NCBI GenBank assembly: GCA_017860615.1
Contig: JAGDMU010000005.1
Span: 1 to 64,000 of the forward strand
DNA from: Pseudomonadota bacterium
GTDB lineage: Bacteria > Campylobacterota > Campylobacteria > Campylobacterales > Sulfurospirillaceae
Direction of reading: 5' to 3'
Length of the DNA: 64,000 bases
Positions within the stretch are counted from its first letter, which is position 1. The number at the start of each line of letters is the position of its first letter. A program made the translations under genes and the position numbers. The notes beneath the pieces were generated by a model, which saw nothing but the letters and a program-made list of their open reading frames with translations, was not told the origin of the DNA and did no database searches. This document shows positions 32,703-35,967 of the stretch, piece after piece.

Positions 32703-33467
32703 TTACTTGCTCAATTCCACTTGAAGACGCATCATCGCAACATGCACTTTTCCTTCATCATCCAGCGGACAAATCGTGCAGTATGCCCTAATCCATGCCT
32801 CCATAAACGCTGTTCTTTTATCACTTGGCACACACTCAATAAAAGGAAACCATGTTGTCTCAAGCCATCCTTGAAACGCTTTCACACCTTCATGCACCAT
32901 ATCTTTAAACACTAAGCTTGCATGATGGGTCTTAAACCCCATATCGCGGAGTATTGCCTCATAGGTTTTATCCGAATGAAACGTATAAGGCGACGTAAAC
33001 CCTTCAAAGTAATCCGCATACTGAGGCTTAACCTGCTCAAATGCTTCAAAAACTTTTTGAGCATTGCCCTCGCCTCCCATCTGTAAAATCGCTCTACCAT
33101 TGGGCTTAAGGGCTTTATAGATGCCCAAAAGTACAGCTTTATGGTCTTTTACCCAATGTAAGGCGGCATTGGAAAAGACCACATCAAAGCGTTCATGAAA
33201 ACTCAATGCTTGTGCGTCCATCTGCATAAACGTTGGCTTAGAAAAAGCAGCTTTTGCATACGCAACCATATCGCTGCTAAAGTCGATGCCTACTACTTCA
33301 CCGTTTGTAAGCTGACTCAAGGCATCCGTGATTTTTCCATCGCCACAACCTATATCTAAAATGGATTCATCACCCTTAAGCTCCATCTTTTCAATCAATT
33401 CTTGTGCCCAAACAGCTTGCCCTTTTGAGTTGGACGCATAGTCACTTGCTTTCCATTTTTTACTCAT
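32703..33467 (-). CDS. Class I SAM-dependent methyltransferase (trans-aconitate methyltransferase-like)
   Basis: 254 residues with motif I ILDIGCGDGKITDAL, post-I VVGIDFSSDMV, and FDVVFSNAALHWVKDHKAVL, the pattern of trans-aconitate 2-methyltransferase and related small-molecule methyltransferases. The C-terminal half (WLETTWFPFIECVP) resembles the same group. It starts 15 bp after leuA ends and is likely co-transcribed. Substrate is uncertain; a link to leucine synthesis intermediates is only suggested by position. Confidence 0.8.
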   Translation of the reverse strand: MSKKWKASDYASNSKGQAVWAQELIEKMELKGDESILDIGCGDGKITDALSQLTNGEVVGIDFSSDMVAYAKAAFSKPTFMQMDAQALSFHERFDVVFSNAALHWVKDHKAVLLGIYKALKPNGRAILQMGGEGNAQKVFEAFEQVKPQYADYFEGFTSPYTFHSDKTYEAILRDMGFKTHHASLVFKDMVHEGVKAFQGWLETTWFPFIECVPSDKRTAFMEAWIRAYCTICPLDDEGKVHVAMMRLQVELSK

Positions 33468-33482: not shown

Positions 33483-34799
33483 TTAAAGCTTACACATTTG
33501 TCTAAAGACTTTGAAAATCTCTTCAGCATTCACTTCTATGCCCTTTTCATCGCACAATTTTTGCACTTCTGTGGCGATTTCGATCTGCATCGCTTTGGTC
33601 GTCTCAATACCATAAAACTCTTTAAGCACATACGCCACGCCACTTTTACCCGACTGCGAGTTGATACGCACCACATCGCGGTAATCCCGCTTTATGTCCT
33701 TTGGGTCAATGATAAGATACGGCACGTGCCAATAGCCATCTAACACCACCTTTTGATACTCCATACCCTTCTTTATTGCGTCTTGATGCGTGCCCGAAAA
33801 AGCCGTGTAAATCATAGAACCTACATAAGGGTGACGGGGAGGAATGGTACTGTGTGTCAATGTGATGATCTCCTGCAAAATCGTATCGATGTTATAAATG
33901 TCCAACATCGGGTCAATCCCTTGCGAATAAAGATTAAACGCCATCGTGATTAAGTCAACATTGCCTGCTCTCTCGCCATTGCCCATCAAGGTGCCCTCAA
34001 CTCTTTGCGCCCCTGCCAAGATCGCCATCTCCGCACTTGCAACCGCTGTGCCTCTGTCATTGTGTGGGTGAACACTTAAGATAACCGCATCGCGCTCCAA
34101 CATCTGTTTGCTCATCCACTCGATTCTATCGGCATAGATGTTGGGCGTACACGCCTCTAAGGTGTTCGGCAAGTTAATAACCATCGGTGCATTTTTGGTT
34201 GGCATCCACTCGCTAATAACCGCATTCACAACGTCACGTGCAAATTCCAACTCTGTTTGTGAAAAGCTCTCAGGAGAGTACTGAAACATCACATCGCCTT
34301 TAAATTTTGTCGCCTCTTCTTTGATGATGCGTGTCCCTTCTAACGCTAAAGTGATGATCTCTTCTTTGCTTTTGTTGAAGACAATTTTGCGTTGATTGTC
34401 CGCGGTTGGATTGTAAAGATGGATCGTTACTCTTTTCGCACCTTTGATAGCTTGAAACGTTTTTTTGATGTGTTTTTCAATCGAAGGTGTTAAAACGCTG
34501 ATGCGTACATCTTCAGGTATCAATTTTTGATCGATCAACATTCTACAAAAATCAAAGTCGGTTTGTGAAGCACTCGGATAGGCGATCTCAATCTCTTTAA
34601 ATCCCATCTCAACCAATTTTTGAAAATACGCCAATTTTTTGGTCGCATTCATAGGCTCTACTAAAGCTTGATTGCCATCACGTAAGTCCGTGCTAACCCA
34701 AATGGGTGCTCCTGTGATAATGTTACTCGCCCACTCTCTGTGAGATAAAGGCACCAATGGGTACGGTTTGTATTTTTTAAATGTTTGTGTATTTTGCAT
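33483..34799 (-). CDS. leuA: 2-isopropylmalate synthase, long-type without regulatory domain
   Basis: 438 residues matching the catalytic part of the actinobacterial-type LeuA: YKPYPLVPLSHREWASN, STDLRDGNQALVEPM with the metal Asp, SVHPHNDRGTAVA with the metal His pair, and EGTLMGNGERAGNVD. It condenses acetyl-CoA with 2-ketoisovalerate in the first step of leucine synthesis. The usual C-terminal leucine-binding domain of about 120 residues is missing; the protein stops after FKVFRQMCKL and the next gene starts 15 bp on. A Val/Leu leader peptide and hairpin precede it, so control is probably transcriptional. No leuBCD genes are adjacent. Confidence 0.92.
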   Translation of the reverse strand: MQNTQTFKKYKPYPLVPLSHREWASNIITGAPIWVSTDLRDGNQALVEPMNATKKLAYFQKLVEMGFKEIEIAYPSASQTDFDFCRMLIDQKLIPEDVRISVLTPSIEKHIKKTFQAIKGAKRVTIHLYNPTADNQRKIVFNKSKEEIITLALEGTRIIKEEATKFKGDVMFQYSPESFSQTELEFARDVVNAVISEWMPTKNAPMVINLPNTLEACTPNIYADRIEWMSKQMLERDAVILSVHPHNDRGTAVASAEMAILAGAQRVEGTLMGNGERAGNVDLITMAFNLYSQGIDPMLDIYNIDTILQEIITLTHSTIPPRHPYVGSMIYTAFSGTHQDAIKKGMEYQKVVLDGYWHVPYLIIDPKDIKRDYRDVVRINSQSGKSGVAYVLKEFYGIETTKAMQIEIATEVQKLCDEKGIEVNAEEIFKVFRQMCKL

Positions 34800-34856: not shown

Positions 34857-34880
34857 AGAAAAATCTTGCGCCATTGCAAG
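34857..34880 (-). terminator. Candidate leu attenuator terminator
   Basis: On the minus strand CTTGC, loop AATGGC and GCAAG (34880-34865) are followed by ATTTTTCT (34864-34857). It lies about 115 bp after the leader peptide stop and 58 bp before the leuA ATG. Further short hairpins (TGCCT/AGGCA and TGAGC/GCTCA) lie between it and leuA. Confidence 0.55.
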
Positions 34881-34994
34881 AAAACAACAATGAAAAATGT
34901 ATGAAATTGTGCTGATTAGGTAGAGGTATCCTCTGGGCTAAAAAGCCAATTTAAACAATGAACAGTGAAAAATAAATGGGGTGAGTGTGAAGTA

Positions 34995-35096
34995 TTAACG
35001 GAGCTTCAGGAGGAGGACGACGAGGACAGATGCGTTAGAAAATTGCGCTATTGTCTGAGGTTGGTATATGGTTTGATGGGATATAAAAGTTGCCAT
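34995..35096 (-). CDS. leuL: leu leader peptide (LeuL-like), 33 residues
   Basis: The ATG at 35096 follows AAAGGAGA at ideal spacing and the frame ends with TAA at 34995. The 33-residue peptide starts MATFISHQTIY and ends SVLVVLLLKLR: five Leu and three Val codons within its last ten, just before the stop. This is the design of branched-chain amino acid attenuation peptides, in which ribosome stalling at Leu/Val codons prevents a downstream terminator from forming. It lies 196 bp upstream of leuA on the same strand, and its ribosome site abuts the stop of the dehydrogenase gene at 35107. Confidence 0.75.
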   Translation of the reverse strand: MATFISHQTIYQPQTIAQFSNASVLVVLLLKLR

Positions 35097-35106
35097 CGGG
35101 TCTCCT

Positions 35107-35967
35107 TTAAGAAAATTTGTAACGGAAAAGCTGATAGATAGAACTAAAGTCCTCATCGCCCTTGCCCATCATTTTCATTTTGGAAAAAAGCTCTTTGGTG
35201 ACACTTGCGGTGTAAAGCGGACGGTTCAGACTGTATGCCAAGTCTTGCAGACAATGCAAATCTTTGGTAATGGCTGAAGTGCTAAAATGCGGACTAAAGT
35301 CCTCATCGATCAGTTTTTGTGTTTTAGCCGCAAGTACGAGTGACTTTCCGCCACCCGCACCCAATATCTCTAAAAGCTCTTTTTTATCAATGCCACATGC
35401 CTCTCCAAGAGCTGTACACTCAGCAATGGTCGCCATAAAAGAACCCAAACAAAGATTATTGATAAGCTTCATCTTCGCCGCAAATCCAGCTTCTTTGAGA
35501 TGAAAAATAGTCGAAGCAAATTTTTCTAAAAGAGGTTTACATGTAAGAAAGACACTCTCACGACCTGCACAAACAGCGGTCAATTCGCCTTTGCTCGCAG
35601 GTACTACACTGCCTAAAACAGGTGACTCAAGGTAATTGCCGCCTTGTTTTTCCACCATCGCATGAAATTCAATAACATCGTTGAAATGGTTGGTACTAAG
35701 ATCGATGATGGTTTTGCCTTTTAAAGCACCGCTTAAAAGTCCATTTTCCATCGTTAAGACATTTCGTACACCATCAGAGTCAAACAGACACATAAGCACT
35801 ATGTCGCACTTCTCCAAAAGCGCTTTAGGTGAACTTTCACAGACAAAGCCTTTTGCTTCTGCTTTTGACTTTGTACGATTCCAAACGATAACCTCTTCGC
35901 CCATGCTTCCTAAACGTTTTGCGATGGCTGAGCCTAAATTTCCTAGACCTATAAAACCGATTGCCAT
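35107..35967 (-). CDS. NAD(P)-dependent 3-hydroxyisobutyrate dehydrogenase family protein
   Basis: 286 residues: Rossmann start IGFIGLGNLGSAIAKRL, the family segment CLFDSDGVRNVL, ESPVLGSVVPASKGELTAV and the catalytic Lys in AAKMKLINNLCLG. The closest functional groups are 3-hydroxyisobutyrate, tartronate semialdehyde and succinic semialdehyde (GLYR-type) reductases; the substrate is not certain. The leu leader peptide begins 11 bp after its stop, so it may be co-transcribed with leuA. It is divergent from the YheO-like regulator, which may control it. Confidence 0.85.
   Translation of the reverse strand: MAIGFIGLGNLGSAIAKRLGSMGEEVIVWNRTKSKAEAKGFVCESSPKALLEKCDIVLMCLFDSDGVRNVLTMENGLLSGALKGKTIIDLSTNHFNDVIEFHAMVEKQGGNYLESPVLGSVVPASKGELTAVCAGRESVFLTCKPLLEKFASTIFHLKEAGFAAKMKLINNLCLGSFMATIAECTALGEACGIDKKELLEILGAGGGKSLVLAAKTQKLIDEDFSPHFSTSAITKDLHCLQDLAYSLNRPLYTASVTKELFSKMKMMGKGDEDFSSIYQLFRYKFS

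Follow-up and report, generated by a model that had tools for sequence, protein, structure and literature searches.

The stretch of DNA analysed here (64,000 nucleotides, hereafter the window) comes from a Sulfurospirillum genome and carries on its minus strand a 2-isopropylmalate synthase gene that is preceded by a short leader frame and two hairpins. Given in the direction of transcription, the features of the locus are as follows.

35107-35967, minus strand: dehydrogenase gene of the 3-hydroxyisobutyrate/6-phosphogluconate family, which runs directly into the leader (reading frame and comparison across a deletion)
35102-35107, minus strand: Shine-Dalgarno sequence AAGGAG of the leader, overlapping the TAA of the dehydrogenase frame and complementary to CTCCT in the control codons
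34995-35096, minus strand: leader peptide frame leuL2, MATFISHQTIYQPQTIAQFSNASVLVVLLLKLR plus stop codon (conserved in 17 leuA2-bearing genomes; pN/pS)
35028-35063, minus strand: codons 12-23, another stretch able to pair with the 5' arm of hairpin T1 (CCTCAG with CTGAGG, CAATTT with AAATTG; pairing energy)
35007-35027, minus strand: control codons 24-30, GTC CTC GTC GTC CTC CTC CTG (V L V V L L L; codon usage)
34998-35018, minus strand: codons 27-33, which can pair with the T1 5' arm and are the proposed antiterminator (inferred from pairing energy)
34904-34952, minus strand: T1, a long hairpin with a U-rich tail, the probable attenuator terminator or its regulatory hairpin (present in 15 of 15 distinct sequences)
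34859-34881, minus strand: T2, a TCTTGC-AATGGC-GCAAGA hairpin (stem-loop 34881-34864) followed by T5, a putative tandem terminator (folding, compensatory pair)
33483-34799, minus strand: leuA2, accessory 2-isopropylmalate synthase of 438 aa with HMGL-like and IPMS_D2 domains (domain search, alignment)

The original prediction had described a 33-codon frame with a good ribosome site ending in VLVVLLLKLR, and we confirmed exactly this at 35096-34995 on the minus strand: the ATG lies at 35096, 33 codons are followed by a TAA ending at 34995, and an AAAGGAG ribosome site stands 5 nt 5' of the ATG. After codon 30 the frame continues with AAG CTC CGT to codon 33, adding a further Leu codon (CTC at 35003-35001), so that codons 24-32 hold five Leu and three Val codons. 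The run is built largely from rare codons: in 50 genes of the window, CTC accounts for 14% of the Leu codons and GTC for 19% of those for Val. From local codon usage, the probability that seven codons in succession at a particular site would by chance all specify Val or Leu is about 3e-6. With its ribosome site and its run of codons for pathway end products, leuL2 has the sequence features of a leader-peptide attenuator frame and is presumably translated. It also fits the definition of LeuL in Campylobacterota, namely 20-35 aa with several C-terminal Leu residues directly before leuA. An Rfam search of the locus with E-values up to 10 returned only noise, with no match to Leu_leader or any other leader family.

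Since a full-length, bacterial-type leuA is found on another contig of the same genome, the gene at 34799-33483 is a second copy, which we call leuA2. Its product is closest to the yeast/Mycobacterium type of 2-isopropylmalate synthase, and the LeuA_dimer allosteric domain was not found in it. Aligned homologues outside Sulfurospirillum are 530-568 aa long (one frame was unreadable), and all three tested ones contain LeuA_dimer; other Campylobacterota families, too, have shortened copies, of about 440 aa. The motifs DLRDGNQ, HPHND, FSG.HQDA and VPYL, in which catalytic residues of the M. tuberculosis enzyme lie, are intact in the leuA2 product according to the alignment. Among second leuA copies, those of genomes G301, G278, G205 and G395 have a shortened isopropylmalate synthase inside long open frames of 689-714 aa, suggesting fusion with another domain.

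A separate conserved leucine leader, MNSVDIGIMKSIKILPKIEIKNALLQNLLSL, lies ~50 nt upstream of the full-length leuA (L002, G000:C14, ~121-124 kb); it is different from and unrelated to leuL2. Between this leader and the full-length gene, no hairpin is visible. The end of the leader is C-rich and G-poor, and it is possibly Rho-dependent. With leuA2 under a probable attenuator and its product lacking the feedback domain, and with the other leuA preceded by a leader of another kind, Sulfurospirillum may offer a natural pair for comparing feedback at the RNA level with feedback at the protein level.

We found leuA2 in 17 of 24 Sulfurospirillum genomes, and the leader in all 17 of these. A profile of the leuL2 peptide gave full-length matches (E ~1e-24) in the 14 leuA2-bearing Sulfurospirillum genomes sampled and no match in the four sampled genomes of the genus without leuA2; the three other leuA2-bearing genomes, outside the profile sample, also have the leader. 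Elsewhere among 299 genomes of the order the profile produced weak matches alone, with E-values of at least 0.002, and those inspected were rejected as leaders, being chance frames with no leuA downstream. Conservation of the Val/Leu run in relatives, proposed as a check in the original prediction, is thus borne out within the genus, where both the peptide and T1 are kept. No insertions or deletions fall inside the leader frame in the aligned sequences, and several fall in the spacer after it. Overall pN/pS for leuL2 is 0.35, dropping to 0.14 for codons 12-23, which shows purifying selection on the peptide. Synonymous sites have diverged less in the leader (0.19; 0.11 in codons 24-33) than in leuA2 (0.51). 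Together, the low pN/pS and the low synonymous divergence indicate that leuL2 is constrained both as a peptide and as RNA.

Constraint on the peptide raises the question of nascent-peptide arrest, in which the conserved QPQxIAQFSNAS...KLR would stall the ribosome in response to a metabolite in the manner of TnaC. Such an arrest would be in keeping with the low pN/pS of codons 12-23 and with the 22 of 33 residues that are invariant over 11 distinct peptides, including residues other than Val and Leu and the C-terminal KLR. However, low synonymous divergence and the complementarity of the codons to T1 explain the conservation at the RNA level, and leaders of related leuA genes share Leu runs only, with no such motif, which makes peptide arrest very improbable.

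Between the leader frame and leuA2, T1 and T2 both resemble intrinsic terminators by their sequence features. The CTTGC/GCAAG hairpin with a T tract that had been noted before leuA is indeed present, at 34881-34859, but it is T2, the less conserved of the two, and the longer T1 had been missed. T1 has a folding energy of -14.7 kcal/mol (z -4.3), with none of 200 shuffled sequences equally stable. It was found in all 15 distinct aligned sequences and is nearly invariant, with 97.6% of cells paired and no covariation among the 15; its mean identity is 0.925, compared with 0.786 for the spacer. T2 is weaker (-7.3 kcal/mol, z -2.9, two of 200 shuffles equally stable) and is missing from three of 16 relatives (L008, L012 and L018), and one of its pairs changes in a compensatory manner, from C-G to U-A, in four of 10 distinct sequences.

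We considered whether termination might depend on Rho instead. Rho would then load on the C-rich, G-poor RNA that follows the stop codon of the leader (TACTTCACACTCACCCC...), a site exposed once translation of the leader is complete but covered or left unused if the ribosome stalls; T1 and T2 would only pause the polymerase or shape the 3' end. The first 30 nt of this spacer are nearly free of G in all relatives, and the leader of the full-length leuA in the same genus, having no visible hairpin, must work by some means other than an intrinsic terminator. Rho alone, however, would require neither the better conservation of T1 relative to the spacer nor a T2 with a compensatory pair, and we judge this explanation unlikely for leuA2.

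The distance from T1 to leuA2 ranges from 63 to 320 nt owing to insertions, a variability that fits control of transcription better than masking of the leuA2 start or ribosome site. In L006, L011, L012, L013, L014 and L017 the insertions are repeat-like, of about 50-150 nt, and carry inverted repeats (e.g. GTTCTTGCAAAATAGCAAGAAC; AAGCGCAAAGTGCGCGTGGG); the insertions separating the attenuator from leuA2 are possibly small mobile elements. Their five-fold effect on spacing bears on translational control, in which the Leu codons would mask the leuA2 ribosome site until ribosome stalling releases it, a mechanism put forward for the actinobacterial LEU element (PMC1262725). The necessary pairing can be drawn at leuA2 (AAGGAT with GTCCT), but it comprises only 5-6 bp. 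Very strong pairing of this kind does occur in other Campylobacterota leaders, with -19.4 kcal/mol in L157 and -17.7 kcal/mol in L155. Across clades, though, a leader's own pairings were not superior to swapped ones (p 0.115). A general mechanism in which Leu codons pair with the ribosome site of leuA thus has no cross-clade support, and we regard translational control of leuA2 as decidedly improbable. As a separate observation, the pairing between control codons and leuA ribosome site upstream of leuA in L157 and L155 resembles that of the actinobacterial element.

A ribosome-mediated switch would need a segment of the leader frame that competes with T1, and codons 27-33 are a candidate. In the window they pair with the 5' arm of T1 at -13.5 kcal/mol, compared with -6.9 +/- 2.7 kcal/mol for synonymous recodings (p 0.018), and each of the 15 sequences pairs better with its native codons than when recoded synonymously (p 0.004-0.026, modest values obtained from related sequences). 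The second complementary segment, codons 12-23, gave p ~0.02 in most relatives, 0.066 in the window and 0.29 in L018. Equilibrium folding with the ribosome represented as a mask did not release T1 in most sequences; since the same calculation fails on the known E. coli leuL, which served as a control, this result carries no weight either way.

The best explanation of these features, and one that we consider likely, is a ribosome-mediated transcription attenuator of leuA2 that senses Leu-tRNA and Val-tRNA. The leader would probably be a real, conserved leader-peptide attenuator of well-known principle, and leuA2 would probably be switched on by amino acid shortage; with Val codons in the run, what is sensed is probably valine as well as leucine. 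The switch itself, the amino acids sensed and the direction of regulation are what we infer from sequence. In the order of events that we propose, RNA polymerase would make the leader RNA with a ribosome following behind on the 33-codon frame. As long as charged Leu- and Val-tRNA are plentiful, this ribosome would reach the stop codon and cover the codons from ~27 or 28 to 33, T1 would form (with T2 as a backup where present) and transcription would end. If either Leu-tRNA or Val-tRNA became scarce, the ribosome would stall in the GTC/CTC run; a stall at codons 24-25 would keep the end of the segment of codons 27-33 accessible, and codons ~29-33 (CUGAAGCU) could then pair with the 5' arm of T1 (GGCUUUUUAG), pre-empting T1 so that leuA2 is transcribed. 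If the leader were not translated at all, its ribosome site could pair with the control codons (AGGAG with CUCCU), occupying the antiterminator arm and giving termination by default, although in leuL2 this pairing is 5 bp only and no better than in synonymous recodings. The predicted alternatives would thus follow the classical order, in which the ribosome site pairs with the control codons, the control codons pair with the T1 5' arm, and T1 pairs with itself. Leucine attenuation of leuA, as originally predicted, holds in so far as conservation supports a leader of branched-chain amino acid codons followed by hairpins, but the run includes Val and the gene is an accessory, shortened paralogue.

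Compared with known systems, leuL2 shares with E. coli leuL (the gammaproteobacterial leu attenuator, Leu_leader in Rfam) a run of Leu codons and, as proposed here, RNA structures that compete with one another and a terminator ahead of leuA; it differs from it in having no Rfam match, mixed Val and Leu codons at the very end of the peptide, and two tandem hairpins. A Val and Leu codon run is also found in the E. coli ilvBN leader peptide, which controls acetolactate synthase, whereas the gene behind leuL2 encodes isopropylmalate synthase. The actinobacterial LEU element likewise has a Leu-codon leader before leuA, with Leu codons pairing with a Shine-Dalgarno sequence; in that case the partner is the leuA site and the structure a pseudoknot without a terminator (PMC1262725), whereas the main structures at leuL2 involve hairpins of terminator type and the ribosome site of the leader itself.

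Closer to the window, Porcelli et al. (PMC3847290) predicted LeuL leaders across Epsilonproteobacteria in 2013, and leuL2 has these features in common with such leaders, including that of C. jejuni: 20-35 aa, a C-terminal run of branched-chain amino acid codons, a good ribosome site, a position directly before leuA and proposed attenuation. Translation of the C. jejuni LeuL was detected by Ribo-seq (PMC11955535). The statement that such attenuation is seldom documented in Campylobacterota can therefore be kept for the leuL2 subfamily only. The C. jejuni leuL precedes leuABCD, and its control run consists of Leu codons alone, whereas Val and Leu alternate in leuL2, whose peptide family was found only in Sulfurospirillum and whose gene is a second, shortened leuA. 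The interest of the leuA2 attenuator lies in the accessory gene without a feedback domain, the Val/Leu mix and the tandem hairpins more than in its existence; it would be a well-conserved example in a non-model phylum, on an enzyme copy without the usual leucine feedback domain.

Leaders with Leu runs also precede leuA homologues in several other Campylobacterota families (e.g. MIQNQTVQNSTTRTKSFLLLSLLLLSF, MNSIKQYNHIQKNNLLLNLLLTK), and among the leaders listed the Val run is confined to the Sulfurospirillum leuA2 family. In leaders L046, L048-L050, L067, L087, L088 and L149-L195, the ribosome site of the leader is complementary to its first Leu codons, and the two appear to change together, as in AGGAGAAG/CUUCUCCU, AGGAGCAG/CUGCUCCU and AGGAGAGA/UCUCUCCU. 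Taking one leader per clade (n = 19), own pairs of ribosome site and Leu codons averaged -11.3 kcal/mol versus -10.0 kcal/mol for swapped pairs, with a permutation p of 0.00035 for clades that were chosen by hand and whose relatedness is not fully removed. Individual leaders often do not exceed synonymous recoding in this pairing, and the subfamily of the window retains only a 5-bp core. We tentatively raise the possibility, which we think more doubtful than probable, that leucine leaders across Campylobacterota are built on a common, undescribed plan whose first switch arm is the Shine-Dalgarno sequence of the leader itself, pairing with the leading Leu codons as in the three pairs above; codon choice would set both starvation sensing and re-initiation on the leader, and the leuA2 attenuator would be a Val/Leu-sensing branch standing in for the lost allosteric domain of the enzyme. 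If real, a co-varying helix of ribosome site and Leu codons would explain codon choice and suggest control of leader re-initiation.

Upstream of the leader, the window strain has a deletion of ~78 nt at 35125/35124 relative to L004, L005, L010 and L012. It removes the usual end and hairpin of the dehydrogenase gene together with the leader promoter; relatives with the same upstream gene have a TGTGCTATACT promoter ~30-40 nt before the leader, and a hairpin of the GGGCGTTT...AAACGCCC type ends their upstream gene. In the window the dehydrogenase frame now terminates inside the leader ribosome site and is fused to the leader, and leuA2 in this strain probably depends on read-through from the dehydrogenase promoter. 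The missing leader promoter counts against the attenuator reading, as does the lack of covariation in T1. The deletion may also be an assembly error. On the other side of leuA2, and 15 nt after it, lies a gene for a SAM-dependent methyltransferase (32703-33467, minus strand; weakly trans-aconitate methyltransferase-like), which we left out of the mechanism as an operon partner because no more than about half of the genomes with leuA2 have it next to that gene. Further downstream, many leuA2-bearing genomes have a LysE-family exporter gene.
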